Origin: Kineococcus rubinsiae
Lineage (GTDB): Bacteria > Actinomycetota > Actinomycetes > Actinomycetales > Kineococcaceae
DNA: 64,000 bases
Assembly: GCF_011839805.1 (NCBI RefSeq)
Contig: NZ_VWPY01000001.1
Span: 248,001 to 312,000, forward strand
Reading direction: 5' to 3'
Positions within the stretch are counted from its first letter, which is position 1, and every line of letters begins with the position of its first letter. Below, in pieces: positions 8,224 to 30,972 of this stretch. The notes under the pieces were generated by a model, which was not told where the DNA came from, did no database searches, and worked only from the letters and a program-made list of their open reading frames with translations. Position numbers and translations under genes: made by a program.

Positions 8224-8297
8224 GGGCCTCTAGCTCAACTGGTTAGAGCAGCGGACTTTTAATCCGCGGGTTGTGGGTTCGAGCCCCACGGGGCCTA
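8224..8297 (+). tRNA. tRNA-Lys(UUU)
   Basis: A full cloverleaf can be drawn. The acceptor stem is GGGCCTC with GGGGCCT (one G-U at each of two positions), the D arm is GCTC/GAGC, and the anticodon loop is CTTTTAA with anticodon TTT. The T arm is GTGGG-TTCGAGC-CCCAC and A73 is the discriminator. CCA is not encoded. The 3' half from 8256 is duplicated at 30908, so this gene is the integration site of the element to its right and remains functional. Confidence 0.95.
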
Positions 8298-9571
8298 CGG
8301 CTTTGACCTGCAGCTTCACCAGCAGGGGGGCTTCTGCCGAGGTCTGCGGAAGCCCTCCGCGCTAACACCTCGCTAACATCCTCGACTGTCCCGCCGCGGG
8401 TGTAGGCCACCACCGCGGCGATCGCGTCCGCGGCGGAGCGGGCCACGGCCGGCACGACGTGGGTGTACAGGTTGCTCGTGATGTTGGTCGTCGAGTGACC
8501 CAGCCGGTCGCTGACCACCTTGATGTCCACGCCCGCTGCCAGCGCCAGGCTCGCGTGGGTGTGGCGCAGGTCGTGCAGCCGGATGATCGGGACGCCGGCC
8601 TGCTCCACCAGCTTGCGGAAGGTGTGGGTGACGACGTCGGGGCGCAGGAGGTCACCGCTCTCCCGCGTGAACACCAGGCCGCGCCCCTGCCAGGCCTCAC
8701 CCCACGCAGCCCGCTCGGCTTCCTGGACGACCTGGTGGTTGCGCAAGACCTCCACGGTGAGCGGGTCGATCGGCACGACGCGCGAGCCGGCGGCCGTCTT
8801 CGGCACCCCAAGCCGCGGGCGCCCGTCCCCCTCGGTGACCTGCCAAGCGACGACGACGTGCGCGCGGTCCAGGTGAACGTCGCTCCAGTGCACGCCGATG
8901 GCCTCGCCTCGCCGCATGCCGGTGAAGGCGATGAGGTGGAAGAGGGCGTACAGACGATGGTCGGCGGCGGAGTCGAGGAAGACACCGATGTGCTGCGGCT
9001 CCCAGACGGAGCTGCGCGCGGCGCGGTGCTGCGGGAGCTCGACCTGCACCGCCGGGTTCCAGGCGATGAGGCGGCGCTTCACCGCACTGTTCAGGGCCGA
9101 ACGCAGGGTGCGGTGCACGTGCTGGACCGTGGCCGGCGTCGTCGCGCCGAGCCGGTGGCCGAGCAGGTCGGAGTAGAGAGCGTCGATGTGGTCGGCGCGC
9201 AGATCCTGCAGCCGGTAGTGCCCCAGCGAGGGGGTGAGGTAGCGGCGGATGTGCATCGCGTAGCTGCGACGCGTCGTGTCCCGGAGGTTGCGCTTGGCGG
9301 TCAGCCACTCCTCGAGGTACTGCGCGACCGTGAGCGGGCGGTCCTGCCGCACGCCGGCCTGCTGTCGGGCGACCTCCGCGTCCAGCGCTTGCTGTGCGTC
9401 TCGCTTGGTGGCGAAGCCGGAGCGCGTCACTTGTCGCCGCGCTCCATCGGGACGCCGTCCCGCGTCGACGACGAACCCCCACAGGCCGCGGCAGCGATGC
9501 GGCAGGAGCTCACCGTCTGCGTTCCGTGGACAAGCGGCGGTGTGACGCTGCCACACGGTGCCCCTCTTCAC
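8243..9571 (-). CDS. Tyrosine recombinase (site-specific integrase)
   Basis: The 442-residue integrase has an AP2-like N-terminal arm domain (residues 1-60), a SAM-like core-binding domain (LTVAQYLEEWL onward) and a C-terminal catalytic domain. Catalytic residues are visible: Arg in FTGMRRGEAIG, the HxxR in RLHDLRHTHAS, His in SDRLGHSTTNIT and the nucleophile Tyr in NLYTHVV. GTG at 9571 overlaps the excisionase stop by four bases. The last codons, ARTHNPRIKSPLL, are read from the antisense of the tRNA-Lys gene, so the gene end is fixed by the integration site. It catalyses insertion at, and excision from, tRNA-Lys. Confidence 0.95.
   Translation of the reverse strand: MKRGTVWQRHTAACPRNADGELLPHRCRGLWGFVVDAGRRPDGARRQVTRSGFATKRDAQQALDAEVARQQAGVRQDRPLTVAQYLEEWLTAKRNLRDTTRRSYAMHIRRYLTPSLGHYRLQDLRADHIDALYSDLLGHRLGATTPATVQHVHRTLRSALNSAVKRRLIAWNPAVQVELPQHRAARSSVWEPQHIGVFLDSAADHRLYALFHLIAFTGMRRGEAIGVHWSDVHLDRAHVVVAWQVTEGDGRPRLGVPKTAAGSRVVPIDPLTVEVLRNHQVVQEAERAAWGEAWQGRGLVFTRESGDLLRPDVVTHTFRKLVEQAGVPIIRLHDLRHTHASLALAAGVDIKVVSDRLGHSTTNITSNLYTHVVPAVARSAADAIAAVVAYTRGGTVEDVSEVLARRASADLGRSPPAGEAAGQSRRPRGARTHNPRIKSPLL
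8256..8320 (+). repeat. attL: direct repeat in tRNA-Lys 3' end
   Basis: The 65 bases match 30908-30972 with a single mismatch (T at 8304 against C at 30956), giving a 48-bp perfect core from the anticodon loop through the tRNA 3' end. It marks the left boundary of a 22.65-kb integrated element. The adjoining integrase gene ends inside it. Confidence 0.95.
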
Positions 9572-9777
9572 CGGTGCACCCCGACCAGGTCGAGCAGCGG
9601 AGCGGTGGGCACGCGGATGAGCTTGCCGAGCCGGACGACGGGCGTGGGCCAGTTGTCGGTGCGGATCAGCTCGTAGGCCGCGGTGCGCCCTATGCCGAGC
9701 AGCGCAGCGGCGGTGGGGACGTCCACGACGGGGGGCAGCGCCATGATCTGCTGCAGGTCCAGCGTGACGCGGCTCAT
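9568..9777 (-). CDS. Excisionase/MerR-like DNA-binding protein
   Basis: This 69-residue protein carries an HTH_17 excisionase-type motif: VPTAAALLGIGRTAAYELIRTDNWPTPVVRLGKLIRVPTAPLLDLVG (cited as residues 20-66 because of length; key residues AAALLGIGRTAAYELI). Such proteins direct the integrase toward excision. ATG at 9777 is preferred over the longer frame because the extra N-terminal residues are low complexity. It overlaps the integrase start by four bases, the usual xis-int arrangement in actinomycete integrative elements. Confidence 0.88.
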   Translation of the reverse strand: MSRVTLDLQQIMALPPVVDVPTAAALLGIGRTAAYELIRTDNWPTPVVRLGKLIRVPTAPLLDLVGVHR

Positions 9778-9832
9778 GAGCGCTCTCCCGTCGTGGTGGT
9801 GCGAAGCATCGCGCGGACACGGGCACGGTGCA

Positions 9833-10924
9833 TCAGTCGATGAACGAGACGTGGACGTGGTCGTAGTGACCTCCGGTGGGGTCACCGGCGTCGTAGACCC
9901 CACCTCCGGTGTAGATCCGCCAGCCCTCGCCGTTGCGGCCGGCGGACCAGATGCGGCCCTGCCAGATGACGTACTTCACGTGCAGGGGGCCGGCGTTCAT
10001 CTGCAACCAAGCGGCGAGCTGCCAGCCGGAGGTGACATCGGCAGGGGCGGGGAAGGATCCCAGTCGACCGAAGGTGATGTCGCAGCCCTTGCCCTGCGGG
10101 TGGTCGGACGTCGGATTCCACGCGTGCGCGTCCCAGCAGGAGGCGGGGCGCTCGCCGAACGTCGCCCAGATCTGTCGCACACCCCAGTCCGTGGCCGCGG
10201 TGACGCACCCCCCGGTGCCGGTGGGATCGGACAGTCGGCAGCCCGCTGAAGCGCCGGCGAAGGCGACCGCTTGTCCACCGAAGGGGGCTGCAGGAGCGGC
10301 CGTGTACTCGTCGAGGTAGCGGTGGATCGCCCCGAGGTAGTCGGTCACCTGACGGGCGCAGCTCGGCCCGCACCCGGCCTCCCCGCTGATCGGGATGCCA
10401 GTGGCCGAGCCGGTGACTCGCGAGCACCCGGCGATGTGACAGACCGCCATGGCGTCGAGCGGACTGGCGCTCTTTCCTGTCGCTCGGAGGTGGGACGTCA
10501 TCGAACGCAGGTTGCTGCACATCCACGGCAGGGCGACCGTGAAGTGCCGCGCCGGGTCCCACACGTCGTGACTGGCCGGCGGCTTCGAGCCGGCGTCCCA
10601 GCCGCCCCCTCCTCTGGCGGCCGCCCACGTCGCGGGCATCACCTGCAGGAGCCCAGCCGCGCCGGCGCTCGAGAAGGCGTGCGGGTCCCACCCGGACTCG
10701 GCTTGAACCTCCGCCACGAGCCAGGTGAGGGGTAGCTCCGGACACGAGGCGTCACGGGCCGTCTCTAGGTCACTGAGCCACGTCCTCGCTGCGGATGGGA
10801 GCGCTTCGACGTTGAGCGCTTGCCCCGAGGCCACAGCAGCTTGGGCGCCCGAGTCCCCCATGGCTCCCCCGAGCAGGAGCACAGCACCGAAAAGGACGGT
10901 CGCGCCTGCGAAGACTGTCTTCAC
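9833..10924 (-). CDS. Secreted lytic transglycosylase with C-terminal peptidase-like domain
   Basis: The 363-residue protein starts with a signal or anchor sequence (VFAGATVLFGAVLLLGG). It then has an SLT-type lysozyme-fold domain with the catalytic Glu in WLVAEVQAESGWDPHAFSSAGAAGLLQVMPATW (about residues 68-100). The C-terminal domain holds SDHPQGKGCDITFG and GGHYDHVHVS, the His/Asp/His spacing of LAS-type (M15-like) metallopeptidases and related actinobacterial domains. It should cut peptidoglycan outside the membrane. In conjugative elements such enzymes open the wall for DNA transfer. Its divergent neighbour is the EspR-like regulator. Confidence 0.85.
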   Translation of the reverse strand: MKTVFAGATVLFGAVLLLGGAMGDSGAQAAVASGQALNVEALPSAARTWLSDLETARDASCPELPLTWLVAEVQAESGWDPHAFSSAGAAGLLQVMPATWAAARGGGGWDAGSKPPASHDVWDPARHFTVALPWMCSNLRSMTSHLRATGKSASPLDAMAVCHIAGCSRVTGSATGIPISGEAGCGPSCARQVTDYLGAIHRYLDEYTAAPAAPFGGQAVAFAGASAGCRLSDPTGTGGCVTAATDWGVRQIWATFGERPASCWDAHAWNPTSDHPQGKGCDITFGRLGSFPAPADVTSGWQLAAWLQMNAGPLHVKYVIWQGRIWSAGRNGEGWRIYTGGGVYDAGDPTGGHYDHVHVSFID

Positions 10925-13228: not shown

Positions 13229-13444
13229 GAGGTCCTCTCTCTTTTCTTGCGTCAGGACCTTGGTCGTGGCGCCCCGCTGGCGTCTCGATCACTTGTGGTT
13301 GCCACCGGCACCTTCATGATTCCTCCACTGTCAAGTCACGTGTGATCGCTGGCAAGTGCACCCAAATCGCGAGGATGCGGAAGACTGAGGTGGCAGGTCG
13401 CGCGGGTGATCTGGTGGGTGCTTGCCGCGGCTAGAGGAGTTGGT

Positions 13445-15367
13445 GTGGCGACTTCGGACGACGCGTGGCTGGACGCTGCGGGTGGCTTCGGTGCCGACAG
13501 CACGGAGCCTCCCTCCGCGTCTCGCGCCGCTCAGGACCGCGACCGCGCCGCTCGGCGGCTGCTGCCGGCCAACGGCGATCCGGGCCTGCAGGCCATCGCC
13601 GCTCTCGCCGCGCGCTTGCTCGCCGCTCCTGGTGCGGAGGTGTCCCTGCTGACTGAGGTGCGCACCATCGCCGCCGCCGGCGGAAGCGTCGCCGGCCGCA
13701 CCGGAGAGCAGACTCCGCTCAGCGAGGCGCTGTGCACGCTGGCCGCGGCCAGCGGCGCCTGCTTCACCGTGCGCGATGCCCGCAGCGACGTCCGCGTCTT
13801 ACACCTGAGCCCGGTCATGCGGGGGGAGGTGGGGGCCTACCTCGCGCAACCTCTCATCTCTGACGACGGGCACATCGTGGGCGCTCTGTGCGTCTACCAG
13901 GCCAGCCCACGCGCGTGGAGTGCCGCCGAGGGGGAGCTGTTGCAGCAGCTGGCCGTGGCGGCCTCCGCCCAGCTCGAGGTCGCCGCCCTGGGCCGTGAGT
14001 TCGAGGACTCCGTCCGGCGGGACGTGCTGGTAGGGGTGTCGAAGTTCGCCCTGGCCCTGACCGGGGTCGACGACATCGACGACCTGGTGACCACCGTCGC
14101 CGAGCAGGGCTTGACGATGCTGGGCTGCGACGGCGGGGCCGTGGCCGTCGTCGACCCCGAGGACGAGACCACCCTACTGTCCTACCTGACCAGCAGCTAC
14201 GGCCAGGACGCTCAGGTCACCTACGCCCACATCCCCCTCAGCGCCCGGCTTCCCGTTGCCGAGGCCGCCCGGACCGCACAGACGGTCCTGCTGGCCGATC
14301 GCGACGTGTGCTTGGCCTATTCCAGTGACATGGCTGGTGTGCTGACCGCCACGGGGGCCCACGCTTTCGCGAGCGTCCCGCTGCGCGTGGGGGCCGAGGT
14401 GCTGGGGGTGGTGACCGCCGGCTGGAAGCAGCCCCAGACTTTCGACACCGAGCAGGTGGCGTTGCTGGAGACCTTCGCCGCCCAGTGCGCTCAGGCCTTG
14501 AACCGCCTGCAGGCACTGAAGGCGGAGCGGGCCGCGGCGCACCGGGTGGCGCGCATGGGTGAGGCGCTGCAGCGCTCTCTGCTGACCGAGCTTCCAGAGC
14601 CGGACCACCTGGAGCTGCTCGCCCGTTACGTGCCTGCTGCGGATGAGGCGCAGGTCGGTGGGGACTGGTACGACGCGTTCATGGTGCGCGATGGCACCAC
14701 GTGCCTGGTCATCGGTGACGTCAGCGGTCACGACCAGGACGCCGCGGTGCAGATGGCTCAGGTCCGCAACGTGCTGCGTGGGGTGGCCCACGCCGTGGTG
14801 GATCCCCCGGCGAGGATCCTGCGATCTCTGGACTGGGCCATGCGGGACCTGGCCATCGGGGCGCTGTCCACCGCGCTGCTGGCCAAGGTCGAGCAGGGAC
14901 CTCGAGACGCCGACCAGGGTCTGCGCACCTTGCGCTGGTCCAACGCCGGTCATCTGCCCCCGCTGCTGATCCAGGCGGACGGTCGAAGTGAGTTCCTCGA
15001 GCGTCCGCACGACTTGCTGCTGGGCTTGAGCGTGGACACCGACCGCCACGATCACAGCGTGCACCTTCTACCCGGCTGCACGGTGCTGCTCTACACCGAC
15101 GGCCTCGTCGAGCGGCGCGGGGAACATCTCGAAGACGGCCTGCACCGGTTGCAGACGTTGGCGACGGCTTTGTCGCACCTGCCGTTGCAGGAGCTGTGCG
15201 ACGACCTCATCGCCCGCCTCGCCGAGGACGCGGAGGACGACGTCGCCCTGCTCGCTGTGCGCGCTCACCGTGAGGACCGCCCCCGCCCTGCCGAGGCCGG
15301 CCCACGGCGACTACCCGCCGACCTCACCCGCGACACTCCCACCGACATCGACGCCCACATCGACTGA
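13445..15367 (+). CDS. GAF-GAF-SpoIIE (PP2C) serine phosphatase
   Basis: The 640-residue protein has two GAF sensor domains (about residues 30-180 and 190-360), a linker helix with RMGEALQRSLL, and a C-terminal SpoIIE/RsbU phosphatase domain. Metal and catalytic motifs are GGDWYDAF near 404, IGDVSGHD near 423, SNAGHLPPLL near 498 and LLYTDGLVE near 547. It probably dephosphorylates an anti-anti-sigma protein in response to a small ligand, light or redox. GTG at 13445 follows GAGGAG; a start at 13406 is possible. It is cytosolic. Confidence 0.9.
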   Translation: MATSDDAWLDAAGGFGADSTEPPSASRAAQDRDRAARRLLPANGDPGLQAIAALAARLLAAPGAEVSLLTEVRTIAAAGGSVAGRTGEQTPLSEALCTLAAASGACFTVRDARSDVRVLHLSPVMRGEVGAYLAQPLISDDGHIVGALCVYQASPRAWSAAEGELLQQLAVAASAQLEVAALGREFEDSVRRDVLVGVSKFALALTGVDDIDDLVTTVAEQGLTMLGCDGGAVAVVDPEDETTLLSYLTSSYGQDAQVTYAHIPLSARLPVAEAARTAQTVLLADRDVCLAYSSDMAGVLTATGAHAFASVPLRVGAEVLGVVTAGWKQPQTFDTEQVALLETFAAQCAQALNRLQALKAERAAAHRVARMGEALQRSLLTELPEPDHLELLARYVPAADEAQVGGDWYDAFMVRDGTTCLVIGDVSGHDQDAAVQMAQVRNVLRGVAHAVVDPPARILRSLDWAMRDLAIGALSTALLAKVEQGPRDADQGLRTLRWSNAGHLPPLLIQADGRSEFLERPHDLLLGLSVDTDRHDHSVHLLPGCTVLLYTDGLVERRGEHLEDGLHRLQTLATALSHLPLQELCDDLIARLAEDAEDDVALLAVRAHREDRPRPAEAGPRRLPADLTRDTPTDIDAHID

Positions 15368-15424: not shown

Positions 15425-16732
15425 TCAGTCCGTCGATGTAGGGGTGGAAGCAGCCGGGTGGGCACGGGTGTCTCGCGCCTGCGGTGGCAGTACGTCCTCC
15501 AGAGCGGTCATGAGGTCGGCCGACAGCGGTTCTCCCCTGCTGACACTGCTGGTAATCGCGTCGGCGACGTCGATGAGCTTGCGGTTGGTGTTCATCGACA
15601 CCTTCTTCAGCACTGCGACCGCAAGCTCCTCACCACACGGCATGAGCATCATGATCATGCCGACGGCGTGCTCGATGCGGGGGCGGCTGCTGAGCGCGGT
15701 CTGTAGCTGCTCCACCGTGGCTTCCAGCTGCGTGATGCGTGCCAGGTCTTCCAGCCTGGCCGAGGCGCGCTCGTGCGTCGAAGGCGCTGCCGGGGCCGGG
15801 GCAGGCGTGGTCGCGTCAGCACGCGAAGCGTCGGCCCGGCGTGGGGTTAGCCGTCGTGGGACCGGCCGTTCTACCGTCCGGTCCCGCTCGGTGGCGCTTT
15901 CGGGGGCGTTGCCGTCGCCGGATGACGGCTGCCCCTGCAGAGTGGCGAGGTCGACGTCTCCGGTGGCGATGTTGTGAGCGAAGGCGTCGAGGGTCTGCCC
16001 CCGCGAGACGGCACTGGCGCGCAGCAGGGCCAGCGCGTCTTCGTGCTGGAGACCTAGGGCGAGGTTGGCCATGCCGGCCGCGACCCAGACGTCGCGGCGC
16101 TGGTTAACCGCTGAGGTGTCCAGCCAGCCATCCGGTACGTCCTGAACCTCGCTGCCCGAGACCGACAAGGCCGTATCCGGGCGCAGCTTGTCGAGGAAGG
16201 CGTCGGCGACCGCTTGGGCGATGAGTTGGGCGGCGATGATGTCCTCACCTTTCAGCGACCGGGGATGCACCAGGTAGAGGTCCAGCACCCCGAAGCGGGT
16301 GTGGCCGGCGCGCAAGGGCACGCTGATGCCGCCGGTGAACGGGGTGGCTTCGCCGTGCAGGGCCGCGAGCACCGGCCAGCGCTCCCGCATCGAGGTCTCA
16401 CTGATGGTGATGGGGCGGCCGGTGGTCATCGCTTCGAAGCACGGACCTTCCCCGGCGGTGAACTGCAGACGCTCCGCGGTCGCTGAGTGTGCGTCGCTGG
16501 CACCGAGGGGGAGGCGGAGTCCGGTGGCGGTCTGCAGCAGCAGCGCGGCCCCGTCGACCCCGAGGACCCGCTTCGCCACCTGGCACAGCAGCGAGGGGAG
16601 CTCGCTGTCGTCCTCACCATCGGTGACTTCCGCAAGCGAGCGTTCGAAGCGGGCGACCAGCGCCGGAACGTGGTGTAGGCCCGCGTGGCGGGACGCATCA
16701 GAGGAAGGGGCAGCGGCTGACGACACGACCAT
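15425..16732 (-). CDS. GAF protein with two ANTAR domains
   Basis: The 435-residue protein has a GAF domain (about 25-180) and a first ANTAR-like helical domain at about 208-265 (VWVAAGMANLALGLQHEDAL). A Pro/Ala-rich linker, a short coiled coil and a second ANTAR at about 340-400 (RPRIEHAVGMIMML, ALLKKVSMNTNRKL-type layout, DVADAITSSV) follow. ANTAR domains bind paired RNA hairpins and prevent termination. One GAF and one ANTAR is the common layout; two ANTAR domains in one chain is unusual. It is convergent with the phosphatase gene. Confidence 0.85.
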   Translation of the reverse strand: MVVSSAAAPSSDASRHAGLHHVPALVARFERSLAEVTDGEDDSELPSLLCQVAKRVLGVDGAALLLQTATGLRLPLGASDAHSATAERLQFTAGEGPCFEAMTTGRPITISETSMRERWPVLAALHGEATPFTGGISVPLRAGHTRFGVLDLYLVHPRSLKGEDIIAAQLIAQAVADAFLDKLRPDTALSVSGSEVQDVPDGWLDTSAVNQRRDVWVAAGMANLALGLQHEDALALLRASAVSRGQTLDAFAHNIATGDVDLATLQGQPSSGDGNAPESATERDRTVERPVPRRLTPRRADASRADATTPAPAPAAPSTHERASARLEDLARITQLEATVEQLQTALSSRPRIEHAVGMIMMLMPCGEELAVAVLKKVSMNTNRKLIDVADAITSSVSRGEPLSADLMTALEDVLPPQARDTRAHPAASTPTSTD

Positions 16733-25419: not shown

Positions 25420-26157
25420 GTGCCTGCAGTCCTGATCCCCGGCGCCACCACCGTTCCCTCCCTCAAGGCCCACCTGGCCGTCCCCCCGGTCGGGGACGGT
25501 CCGTGGCCGGCGGTCGTGGTCCTGCACGAAGCCTTTGGGCTGACCGACGACACCCGCCAGCAAGCCGACCGCCTCGCCGCTGCCGGCTACCTCGCGGTGG
25601 CCCCTGACTTGTTCAGCGCCGGTGGGATTCGCTGTCTGCGCGCCACCTTCTCAGCCATGGCGTCCGGCCACGGGCCGGCCTTCGGTGACATCGAAGCTGC
25701 CCGACTCTTCGCCGCCGGGCACCCGCAGTCCACCGGTGTCGTCGGTGTCTTGGGCTTCTGCATGGGCGGTGGCTTTGCCCTCATGGCTGCTACTCGCGGC
25801 TTCGACGCTGCAGCCCCCAACTACGGTCTGCTGCCCAAGAACGCCGAGGAGATCCTGCGCGGGGCGTGCCCCATCGTGGGCAGCTACGGCGGGCGTGACC
25901 GCGGCCTGCGCGGGGCCGCGCAGCGCCTGGAGACCATCCTCACCGACGCCGACATCGACCACGACGTGCGCGAGTACCCCGACGCTGGGCACTCCTTCCT
26001 CAACCGCCACAACTCCGGTCCGTTGGCGGTGCTGGAGAAGGTCGGTGGCTTCAGCTACCACCAGCCCTCCGCCGAGGACGCCTGGGGACGCATCCTGCGC
26101 TTCTTCCACACCCACCTCCAAGACCCCGCGGCCACGGCCGCCACTCCTGGGTCTTGA
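25420..26157 (+). CDS. Dienelactone hydrolase family protein
   Basis: The 245-residue alpha/beta hydrolase has the DLH nucleophile elbow GVLGFCMGGGFAL with Cys near residue 113, an Asp in YGGRDRG and His in PDAGHSFLN, forming a Cys-Asp-His triad. DLH enzymes open lactones formed during aromatic degradation. GTG at 25420 follows GAGGAGAG. As the last gene of the operon it may hydrolyse the product of the flavin oxidoreductase. A strong hairpin follows at once. Confidence 0.9.
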   Translation: MPAVLIPGATTVPSLKAHLAVPPVGDGPWPAVVVLHEAFGLTDDTRQQADRLAAAGYLAVAPDLFSAGGIRCLRATFSAMASGHGPAFGDIEAARLFAAGHPQSTGVVGVLGFCMGGGFALMAATRGFDAAAPNYGLLPKNAEEILRGACPIVGSYGGRDRGLRGAAQRLETILTDADIDHDVREYPDAGHSFLNRHNSGPLAVLEKVGGFSYHQPSAEDAWGRILRFFHTHLQDPAATAATPGS

Positions 26158-26161
26158 ACCG

Positions 26162-26196
26162 AGGACTTGGACCGGCCATGGCCGGCTCCAAGTCCT
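26162..26196 (+). terminator. Terminator after the redox operon
   Basis: A 10-bp perfect stem AGGACTTGGA (26162-26171) with its complement (26187-26196) encloses the self-complementary CCGGCCATGGCCGG, making a long rod-like hairpin. It begins five bases after the dienelactone hydrolase stop. Confidence 0.75.
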
Positions 26197-26224
26197 TGTC
26201 CTCCCCGTCGACAAGACTGCAGCC

Positions 26225-27210
26225 ATGACCGATCTCGTGGTGCAGGCCTCACCCATCACCACCGCTGCGCCCCCTGCGCGGCCCGCTCCGCTAGACCGCC
26301 TACCCGGCTCCTCGAGCGATGACCCCTTCCACCGCATCGCTGCGGCCTGGCTGCTTAGCTACGGCGGCAACACCCAGATCGCCTACCGCCGCGACCTCGC
26401 GGCCTGGGCGACCTGGTGCGAGCACAGGGGCGTGCACCCCCTCGCTGCTGAGCGCTTCCACGTCGATGCCTGGGTGCGCCACCTGACCACCGAGCCTCAG
26501 GCCCGCACGGGCCGACCCGCGTCGGCGGCCACGATCGCGCGACGCCTGTCGGCGCTGTCGCGCTTCTATGACTACGGCCTACACGACGCCGAGGTGCTGA
26601 CCCACTCCCCCGTCGCCTCAGTGCGTCGTCCGAAGGTGAGCGACGAGAGCCAAGCAGTTGGCCTCACCTCTGATGAGCTGCGCCGGTTGCTCGCCGCTGC
26701 GGGGACCCACTCCCCCCGTTCTGCTGCGCTGGTCTCGCTCCTGACCTTCTGCGGGCTGCGGATCTCCGAGGCCCTCGGCGCGGACGTGCGTGACTACGGC
26801 CACGACCAGGGCCACCGGGTCCTTAAGATCATCTGCAAGGGTGGCAAGGCTGCGCGTGTGCCGCTTCCTCCCCCGGCTGTCCGCGTGCTTTACGACTACC
26901 TCGGAGATCGCACGAGTGGCCGCTCTTCCTCGCCAGCGACACCACCAGCCGCTACCCGTACAAGAGCGCGTATGAGCAGCTGGGGCGGCTCTGCCGGGCT
27001 GCTGGCCTGCCCGCTGGGGTCACGCCTCACAGCCTGCGCCACTCCTACGCGACCGAGAGCCTGCGCCTCGGCGCACCCTTGCAGGATGTCCAAGACGCCA
27101 TGGGCCACGCCGACCCACGCACGACGCGGCGCTACGACCGCAGCCGCCACAACCTCGACCGCTCCCCCAACTACCTTCTCGCCACTGCCCTCACCAGCAC
27201 CGACGGCTAG
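26225..27210 (+). pseudogene. XerD-like tyrosine recombinase, frameshifted
   Basis: The first frame (from ATG 26225) encodes a core-binding domain and the start of the catalytic domain with Arg in LTFCGLRISEALG and the KGGKAARVPL Lys turn, up to YDYLGDRTSG near 26915. The remaining catalytic part continues one base out of frame: LFLASDTTSRYPYK, HSLRHSYATESLRLG, DAMGHADPRTTRRYDRS, ending at TAG 27208. Adding one base near 26918 restores all catalytic residues (R, K, HxxR, H, Y). It is either a recent inactivating deletion or a sequencing error. Confidence 0.85.
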
Positions 27211-27523
27211 CCAGCACCGCAGAGGAGGAGCCCCGGCCACGGTTTCTGAGACGGCGTGTCGAACCTTGAAGCCCGCTTCCCCCGTCGCGTCTCACAACCG
27301 GTCGGCTGTGGGACGCGGGATGCCGTTGTGGAGAACCTCCAAAGGGCGACGTGGACATCAGCGCCCAGATCCGAGCACGGTTGACCGGTGTCCCGAGCCC
27401 CTGTCCCGAGCCCCGGATGATCCTTCGCTCATGTCGACAAGCGGGCGATCGAAGGCCATCAGGCGGGGCGTTCAGTGGTCGCGCCTGCTGCGATGGTCGA
27501 CAGCATCACCGGCGAAGGCAGCG
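27211..27523. other. 313-bp stretch without a gene
   Basis: No supportable coding frame is seen. It contains a perfect 13-bp tandem repeat TGTCCCGAGCCCC at 27389-27401 and 27402-27414. It lies between the broken recombinase and the end of a leftward small membrane-protein gene, and may mark an old recombination junction. Confidence 0.45.
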
Positions 27524-27712
27524 TCACCGCGGGTCCTCCCTCTCCGCCATGACGACCGCCCCAACAGCCAGCCCCGGCAGCAGACCCATCAAAGACGTGC
27601 CCACCAATGAATCCACCCACTCGTAAGTGCTGCCAGAGCTCCACATGAGGACAACGGCGAGAAGGGCACCTGCTCCTATCCCGGCGACAGCGCTCAGAGC
27701 CAGGTAGCGCAT
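27524..27712 (-). CDS. Small two-segment membrane protein
   Basis: This 62-residue protein has two hydrophobic stretches, LALSAVAGIGAGALLAVVLM (residues 4-23) and LVGTSLMGLLPGLAVGAVVM (36-55), separated by SSGSTYEWVDS. ATG at 27712 is preceded by GGCGGAGG at good spacing. It follows the DUF2637 gene by 129 bases in the same direction, so it may belong to the transfer-like module. No family recognised. Confidence 0.5.
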   Translation of the reverse strand: MRYLALSAVAGIGAGALLAVVLMWSSGSTYEWVDSLVGTSLMGLLPGLAVGAVVMAEREDPR

Positions 27713-27841: not shown

Positions 27842-28798
27842 TCATGACGATGTCCGCGTAGTCGCGGGAGCCCACCAGCAAGATCGAACCAGTAGCTGCG
27901 CGGTGCGGGTGGACACCTCATGTCCCGCCGCTCGCAGGACGCCGGCGAGCGCGACAGCGGTGATGTCTGGCGCTCGTCGCACCGCATCGACGGCGATCGC
28001 GGTGCGGTCCGCCACGGGAGTGACGGCCAGCGACGGGGGCGCCGACGCCGGGCGCGACGTGGCAGGAGGCTCACTAACCGGTGCTTCCGTTTCGCTGGCA
28101 GTCGGCGTATCCGCAAGGGGATGCGCACCGAGTGAGCGACGAGACGAGACGTCACCCTGGTTCGGGACCTCGTCGCGGTGAACCGCCGGCATCAGCGGCT
28201 GCCTGGGGACCGGAGGGGGCGGCGTCGCGTCAGGCAACGGCGTCGCAAGCACGTGGTCTCGCCACAACGTCCACGTCTGACGGGGGGCCAAGAGCCACCG
28301 AATGCGCGGCAGCGACGGCCGCCCGTCCTGAGTGCCGCGCTGGGCGGGGACGGTGACAGCCCGGCGGGCACCGGCGGCGAGGGTCTCGAAGCAGATGACG
28401 AACATCGCCGGCGGGACGGCGTGCAGCAACCGGCCCACAAGGGTCTGCGAGGCGGCGCTGTTGGCCACCACGGTCGCCGAGGACAGGACGATGACGAGTG
28501 CTCTCAGCAATCGCGCAGGCCGACCGCACCGGGCAGCCAGAACGACCTTCAGGCTGAGCACCACGACGCCGACGTCAAAGGACAGCGGCACCAGCGGCGC
28601 CAGCCACGCTGAGAAGCCACCGACCTCCGCGGCCAGGTCGCGCAGGGTGCTGTAGCTGGCGGCGAAGCCGGTCACGATGAGGATGCCCACGCCGATCGCG
28701 GCGGCCCGCTCGGCCAGGACGTCGAAGGGTTGGCCTTCTTCCCGGTCAGGCCGCTGGCCGCTCCGGTCGATCGGCCAGCGCCCGGACATCGCCGTCAC
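27842..28798 (-). CDS. DUF2637 membrane protein (transfer/spread-associated)
   Basis: The 318-residue protein has several transmembrane helices in its first half: AAAIGVGILIVTGFAASYSTL, WLAPLVPLSFDVGVVVLSLKVVL, ALVIVLSSATVVANSAASQ, AVPPAMFVICFETLAAGARR. A Pro-rich linker and a C-terminal HTH-like segment (RRAPDITAVALAGVLRAAGHEVSTRTAQLLVR) follow. DUF2637 proteins are common in actinomycete plasmids and integrative elements, near transfer or spread genes. GTG at 28798 overlaps the MobC stop by four bases. Confidence 0.82.
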   Translation of the reverse strand: MTAMSGRWPIDRSGQRPDREEGQPFDVLAERAAAIGVGILIVTGFAASYSTLRDLAAEVGGFSAWLAPLVPLSFDVGVVVLSLKVVLAARCGRPARLLRALVIVLSSATVVANSAASQTLVGRLLHAVPPAMFVICFETLAAGARRAVTVPAQRGTQDGRPSLPRIRWLLAPRQTWTLWRDHVLATPLPDATPPPPVPRQPLMPAVHRDEVPNQGDVSSRRSLGAHPLADTPTASETEAPVSEPPATSRPASAPPSLAVTPVADRTAIAVDAVRRAPDITAVALAGVLRAAGHEVSTRTAQLLVRSCWWAPATTRTSS

Positions 28799-29262
28799 GA
28801 GTGCCCCTCGCCCGTTAAACCAGGTGTCCCGGTCACCGGGCGACCGCGCCGGACCGGGCGGCGAGTCGCCGCGGCCAGGTCAGCGGCCACGTCATCCAGG
28901 CGAGCAACGGCGCGACTGGTGACAGCCACCGCACCGGCCAACCACTCCGGCGGCTGGCCAGTGGCGTGCAACGCGGCCACCGCCTGGTTGACGTTGATGG
29001 CGAACCGGCGCACCTGGGACCGGGCGGCCATCACCTCCACCAGTGCAGCACGCACGGGTGCGATCGATGGCGCTTCGACGCCGCGGGCGGCCGCGAGGGC
29101 CGCTTCGGCGGCGTACCCGCTGACCGTCAGGCCCGCCAGACGCGCGGCCTCCGCCAGGGCGATGAACTCCTCGTCGGTGCATCGCAGCTTCACCTGCCGG
29201 TTGCGGCCCGGCGAGACGTGCACCCGGTCCCGGCCGGGGGTGCGCCGGCGCTGCCCGCTCAT
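28795..29262 (-). CDS. MobC-like relaxosome accessory protein
   Basis: The 155-residue basic protein has the MobC/ribbon-helix-helix pattern: RQVKLRCTDEEFIALAEAARLAGLTVSGYAAEAALA (residues 22-57), then QVRRFAINVNQAVAALHATGQ, the typical MobC core with NVNQ. MobC proteins bind oriT and help a relaxase nick DNA. No relaxase gene is seen in this window, so a partner would have to come from elsewhere. It overlaps both neighbours by four bases. Confidence 0.82.
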   Translation of the reverse strand: MSGQRRRTPGRDRVHVSPGRNRQVKLRCTDEEFIALAEAARLAGLTVSGYAAEAALAAARGVEAPSIAPVRAALVEVMAARSQVRRFAINVNQAVAALHATGQPPEWLAGAVAVTSRAVARLDDVAADLAAATRRPVRRGRPVTGTPGLTGEGHS

Positions 29263-30706: not shown

Positions 30707-30803
30707 AGGGTCTCTCCGCAGCATCGCGAGGGCAGCCGCGGGTGGCGCACGAGCCGACATCAGCCGGACGCGCGCTCACACCGCGCTAACGGATGCACCG
30801 GCA

Positions 30804-30878
30804 CCGCCCGGTCCAGGGGGACCGGGCGGCACCAGCCAGGAAGAGAAGCTGCAGGTCACAGGCCTGGTCAGGCCTGGT
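30804..30878. repeat. Hairpin and tandem 10-mers next to attR
   Basis: An 11-bp perfect stem (CCGCCCGGTCC at 30804-30814 with 30819-30829) is followed by a tandem copy of CAGGCCTGGT at 30859-30868 and 30869-30878. These lie 30-100 bases inside the right att site. Short repeats there often serve as integrase arm-binding sites; that role is inferred. Confidence 0.5.
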
Positions 30879-30907
30879 CGGCACCATCCGGACGAGGGCC
30901 GGGTTGC

Positions 30908-30972
30908 CTTTTAATCCGCGGGTTGTGGGTTCGAGCCCCACGGGGCCTACGGCTTCGACCTGCAGCTTCACC
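30908..30972 (+). repeat. attR: partial tRNA-Lys duplicate
   Basis: This repeats the tRNA-Lys 3' half and 23 bases beyond it, matching 8256-8320 with one mismatch. It lacks the tRNA 5' half, so it is not a functional gene. It marks the right boundary of the element; chromosomal genes resume with the M56 peptidase. Confidence 0.95.

Follow-up and report, generated by a model that had tools for sequence, protein, structure and literature searches.

An integrase gene that reads antisense into its tRNA-Lys attachment core has different predicted C-termini in the integrated and excised states of a Kineococcus mobile element

The window analyzed here, a 64-kb stretch (64,000 nucleotides) of the Kineococcus rubinsiae genome, carries a 22.65-kb mobile element in a tRNA-Lys(TTT) gene, the integration target (8224..8298, forward strand, called by ARAGORN). 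The element is bounded by a 48-bp exact direct repeat, which provides the att core copies at attL (8256..8303) and attR (30908..30955), both on the forward strand; the attR copy is a tRNA 3' fragment. The repeat begins at 8256, so that 8224-8255 (forward strand) is the host-derived 5' half of the tRNA gene and the 3' half is att core. Its first base is the first base of the tRNA-Lys anticodon loop. Beyond the core, the two copies share 0 bp leftward, and rightward a single mismatch (8304/30956) is followed by 16 identical bases, to 8320. A chance repeat was ruled out because the repeat rebuilds the tRNA 3' half and because matches to the 65-base att sequence are practically confined to the two ends, with one 46-base match at 83% identity elsewhere in the genome. 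Such a repeat, with an int gene adjoining one end, is a feature of tRNA-targeting tyrosine-recombinase elements. A search of phage and plasmid collections for close relatives of the element found none.

The position of the core is shared with other elements. In 15/15 elements with two ends (the window and 14 others) the first core base falls between tRNA positions 28 and 35, in the anticodon loop or adjacent to it, G172 having been removed before the counts because its second copy begins in the T loop. Six of the 18 entries in the first batch had no usable second end (G007, G003, G018, G084, G119 and G158 contig 32), as had 7/11 in the second, and these 15 elements were left in all. The ends are less certain for G008 and for the element on contig 30 of G000, whose exact second copies are 17 and 18 bp, respectively. 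The host flank outside attR (30956-30972) carries GACCTGCAGCTTCACC, the right-arm sequence of the element, with one mismatch just before it; a related element that once occupied the same tRNA may have left this as a scar.

The int gene (8243..9571, reverse strand) encodes a tyrosine recombinase of 442 aa, with a predicted GTG start. The longer mechanical ORF, 8243-9826, overstates the gene: homologs begin at the same residue as the GTG at 9571, and this start also agrees with where the upstream HTH gene ends (9568). Int has arm-binding, SAM-like and catalytic domains (Pfam Arm-DNA-bind_4, SAM_3 and Phage_integrase, the last at 1.8e-21). Residues R220, H333, R336, H359 and Y369, which we take to be the catalytic residues, all fall in invariant alignment columns. 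Within the 442 residues, the catalytic Tyr stands at 369, the whole catalytic domain precedes the tail, and the state-dependent residues lie about 70 further on. AlphaFold gave residues 374-442 a pLDDT below 50, which is weak evidence of disorder since the alignment was shallow (7 sequences). Compared with the Int of Kineococcus indalonis, 333/389 positions are identical through residue 389, and identity falls to 24/34 over residues 390-423 and 10/15 over residues 424-438; the host-templated last four residues are identical (4/4). The final codons are antisense to tRNA-Lys, and the stop codon (8245-8243) lies in the host half of the tRNA.

Adjoining int is a gene for a small HTH protein (9568..9903, reverse strand; HTH_17, E 0.0048, under the Pfam cut-off), which from its position would be xis-like. 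A NikA-like mobilization protein (28795..29262, reverse strand; PF21983, 2e-09) adjoins a DUF2637 protein (the pair spanning 27842-29262, reverse strand), and this pair suggests a mobilizable element. The defining features of an actinomycete integrative and conjugative element (AICE) are an FtsK-like translocase and a replication initiator. A Pfam scan of 10 element ORFs matched NikA-like, DUF2637 and HTH_36 profiles and found no translocase among those 10. A second tyrosine-recombinase ORF (25622-27610, forward strand) matched the catalytic Pfam profile over its first half only and is possibly frameshifted. The cargo includes a GAF-SpoIIE phosphatase (13406-15367, forward strand) and a GAF-ANTAR regulator (15425-16732, reverse strand).

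In the integrated state, the int frame ends ...RIKSPLL (in the longer stretch, ...GARTHNPRIKSPLL). The tail SPLL and its stop (8243..8257, reverse strand) are templated by the host tRNA half, with the first codon shared with the core. The predicted circle would join 30907 and the bases to its left to 8256 and the bases to its right. Translation across that junction reads ...RIKRQPGPRPDGADQA, giving an excised-state tail RQPGPRPDGADQA plus stop (30868..30907, reverse strand; stop codon 30868-30870) in which the core completes the first codon. The first-pass annotation had read both tails correctly to the letter. Because the att copies diverge immediately to the left of 8256/30908, any crossover in the core replaces codon 439 onward. 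Thus the change of C-terminus upon excision proposed in that annotation follows from the att assignment, and it is supported by natural tandem-array cases (L207 and G158 contig 32, below). Its proviso that a crossover right of 8256 would leave the tail unchanged was topologically mistaken, since such an exchange would still swap the tail. The length of the excised tail is unremarkable alone, the background probability of a stop within 14 codons being 0.22 for this element.

We surveyed 45 homologous int loci, comprising 38 loci (the window among them) and 7 new ones. The int frame reads past the core at 13 of the 45, stops earlier inside the tRNA at four and stops before the tRNA at 24; the other four have no tRNA nearby. 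Neither the frame nor the tRNA is constant among the read-through loci, which have endings such as RIKSPLL (Lys), GLEPTTRGLRVRCSAS (Lys-CTT), RITSASL (Thr) and RRIMSPLL (Met). On an Int tree of 36 rows, a subset of the loci found, the read-through label is phylogenetically clustered, requiring 5 changes against a shuffled mean of 12.1 (0/500 shuffles were as low), and well-supported branches force at least three changes. That int overlaps the tRNA is therefore a heritable trait, while the sequence of the tail itself is written by the tRNA. For instance, the integrated tail in K. indalonis is SPLLCQLS instead of SPLL because the D-loop of the host tRNA differs.

After K. indalonis, the nearest relatives (63-64% identity; in tRNA-Thr and tRNA-Phe) have int frames that stop 28-29 nt into the tRNA. 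These stops are inside the tRNA 3' half, and thus their C-termini would not change. A second core copy was looked for in the Phe-targeting relative, and none was found. The close relatives G008 and G007 have no state-dependent tail, and the Int of G002, which is 41% identical and has the same tRNA-Lys target, ends before the tRNA. Tail use varies, and homologs do without a tail even at the same tRNA-Lys.

The genome of the window carries a second such element, in tRNA-Thr(CGT) (the element on G000 contig 30; L026, L094 and L095), whose int also reads past the core; its tails are RVRCSGQLS when integrated and, as predicted, D* when excised; its second core copy is only 18 bp long. Viral contigs L361-L396 represent a tRNA-Lys hotspot in which several element types share a 36-base core (one contig measured, 61% GC). 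In this hotspot, an int-length frame reads through in only one element type.

Alternative tails also occur naturally. In the viral contig L207, a truncated family Int is followed by the core and then by no tRNA, and the frame gives RIKRHDDSVVVPLFSEPLERAA; we infer that the DNA past this core is the arm of another element. G158 has two closely similar Ints with different endings: the first finishes as GLEPTTRGLRVRCSAS within tRNA-Lys(CTT), and the second, on contig 32, extends beyond the core by about 110 residues in a joined tail that is non-acidic and basic-rich. Contig 32 (L450-L452) has three tRNA-Lys core copies, between which arms and integrases of two kinds alternate, and is a tandem or recombined array. 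As judged from these frames, the tail follows whatever DNA lies past the core, and a long, non-acidic joined frame exists in nature.

The DNA on either side of the core contains repeats. Right-arm TGACCTGCAGCTTC (8304..8317, forward strand) has an inverted copy in the left arm (30845-30858). Among 17 loci tested, 10, window included, have right-arm TGACCTGC starting 1-7 nt past the tRNA, and inverted GCAGGTCA is at -56 to -58 in 4/15 left arms, again with the window included. Two copies of CGCTAAC (at 8360 and 8371; 8360..8377, forward strand) are candidate arm-type sites. With a third copy at 30784, they are the only three on both strands of the window, and all lie in attP arms. These right-arm and left-arm repeats and CGCTAAC are probable Int or accessory sites.

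Five Lys elements have Pro in common at tail position 7, and three of these share PDG at the same codon. PDG is the complement of CACCnnnCGG, which in the window is CACCATCCGG (30882..30891, forward strand), -26 to -17 from the core and a candidate recombinase site. In a register comparison, G147 (7/7) and G008 (6/7) have the block at an equal distance from the core. The other 8 of 15 elements, among them a read-through element (G000 contig 30), lack it or have it in part (2-5 of 7). The Int of neither G147 nor G008 reads through. A conserved PDG peptide was therefore set aside, as a block that is present without read-through is more simply explained by a DNA-binding site.

Several integration systems in the literature resemble the one described here. 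In the IntP system of the Myxococcus phage Mx8 (and in Mx9), as presented in PMC6070905, which cites Tojo et al. 1996 for Mx8, the coding sequence of int contains attP, so that the 3' end of the gene is replaced on integration. From its computed frames, the window int is likewise a gene with attP inside it, open across attP and with C-termini that differ between the two states, and Mx8 is its direct precedent. In contrast to Mx8, where that account reports that the change alters integrase behaviour, only the last residues of a probably disordered tail change in the window, its target is the anticodon loop of a tRNA, and its new end is antisense tRNA. The mycobacteriophage BPs, known for integration-dependent immunity, also has attP in an open frame and a C-terminus that changes on integration, but according to PMC4557955 the protein changed is the repressor, whose viral form carries a degradation tag; the window attP lies in int and not in a repressor gene. 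The archaeal suicidal integrases (SSV1, pTN3 and pT26-2) have an att site inside the integrase gene and are described in PMC8371274 as inactivated by a split that leaves an N and a C fragment, whereas the catalytic domain in the window ends well before the core and stays whole. The tRNA islands of Islander class A have an anticodon-centred attP, as in the window, and Islander allows integrases that extend across attP, with Mx8 and SSV named; state-dependent tails are not part of the account of this class given in PMC4383910. In a pleolipovirus, a coding sequence spans attP and its protein is described as made only in the circular state, but this is a separate small gene adjoining the integrase rather than an integrase tail (PMC7911831). 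ICEKp1 is described with a state-dependent int promoter (PMC13023037). A literature search at title and abstract level, which is not proof of absence, found no description of actinobacterial tRNA elements whose integrase tail depends on the state.

We considered whether the excised tails carry signs of selection. The predicted tails are RQPGPRPDGADQA in the window, STGPEIPDGVAE in G006, RAQPPVPDGDA in G085, SRVDGVPGDAAG in G292 and SPVDDVPRGYDPFY in G340, together with SQNESVTPDDGETQ, SQNESVMPDDGESH and SQNPEVIDTDPDSS from viral contigs; L367 comes from a contig with a truncated Int (199 open codons). All of the two-ended read-through elements (6/6) have a stop in the excised frame within 14 codons, compared with 9/39 control frames (Fisher, 6e-4), which were other frames of the same DNA (3/12 stop early) and frames of non-read-through elements (6/27). 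This argument is weakened by the relatedness of the elements and by the non-read-through elements at one tRNA-Lys core, where that frame also stops after 4-19 codons (7 loci). Additionally, Asp and Glu number 2-4 per 12 codons in eight read-through excised tails, whereas 16 elements without read-through have 0-2 (p 6.7e-5; with near-copies removed, 7 versus 13 elements and p 3e-4), in a small sample of elements that share related attP-arm DNA and by a measure picked after the sequences were seen. The comparison left out L390, L371 and the G000 contig-30 element, which is in a different frame. Early stops and acid richness, both of them weak and post hoc signs, and the clustering of read-through on the tree may mean that some selection acts on the excised tail or on the overlap itself, and a functional excised tail is possible.

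The window thus holds a tRNA-Lys-integrated element whose int runs antisense into the att core, and we consider it probable that the tail is mostly a neutral extension of a complete recombinase. The int frame crosses the tRNA-derived core, which has no stop in that frame, and thus ends in the DNA beyond it. In the integrated element this is the host 5' half of tRNA-Lys, and in an excised element, after strand exchange at the anticodon loop, it would be the element's own left attP arm, with both forms of Int presumably translated. The choice of target tRNA and the DNA sites in the attP arm would then determine the tail sequence, and selection would at most favour an early stop when the element is excised. 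The state-dependent tail looks mostly like a by-product of the insertion site. The suggestion of the first-pass annotation that the tail tunes activity or stability was unsupported, given a region modelled as disordered about 70 residues past the Tyr, homologs that lack the tail, close relatives whose C-termini would not change and a host-dictated sequence.

It is unlikely, in our estimation, that Int is coded by state, such that the Int made from the circle ends in a short, acidic, Pro/Gly-containing tail and that of the integrated element in a neutral or hydrophobic one, with a resulting bias in DNA binding, directionality or stability. The acid content described above, early stops that use TGA three times and TAG twice at differing distances, and the possible analogy to Mx8 IntP are each consistent with such coding. 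In addition to the post hoc measure and the related arms, however, G147, which does not read through, reads RQPGDDPPGAKV* in the same frame; between the close relatives L372 and L381, a hand count over 14 codons gives about 4 replacement changes and 2 silent ones; in the other read-through element of the window's genome, nothing but D* follows the core; the close relatives G008 and G007, and G002 at the same target, have no such tail; and the joined frame found in G158 is long and basic-rich.

Alternatively, the element could be fixed or int silent, so that the excised tail is never made. No excised circle was seen, and a right-flank search for an empty attB site found no clear one among 12 family genomes, as such a reading would predict, but the int frame is uninterrupted, the att sites at the two ends are intact, a gene for an HTH protein adjoins int, and relatives sit in tandem arrays, which indicates that the family is active; we regard a fixed or silent element as very unlikely. 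The ssrA tag ends in LAA, and neither tail of the window Int ends in this way. A C-terminal degron giving a state-dependent stability switch, for which the precedent is BPs, where integration removes a proteolysis tag from the repressor and the integrase has a C-terminal proteolysis signal of its own (as related in PMC4557955), is the most improbable of these explanations and was set aside, as no terminal motif is common to the excised ends (DQA, VAE, GDA, AAG, PFY, TQ, SH and SS) or the integrated ends (LL, LS, AS, AG, SL and SP).

The neutral tail is the reading that we prefer, and we think it quite unlikely that Lys-targeting read-through elements encode a circle-only acidic Pro/Gly tail in the left attP arm, by which one gene would yield an integration-phase and a residence-phase integrase without an extra regulator. 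Were the tail to matter, DNA topology would tell the enzyme the state of its own gene, a regulator-free switch that would extend the principle of Mx8 and BPs to tRNA-targeting elements. If the tail is neutral, the finding is a warning for genome annotation: in many such integrases the final residues are host-supplied antisense tRNA, as in the endings RTHNPRIKSPLL and GLEPTTRGLRVRCS, and therefore the protein annotated from an integrated element differs from the product of the circle.
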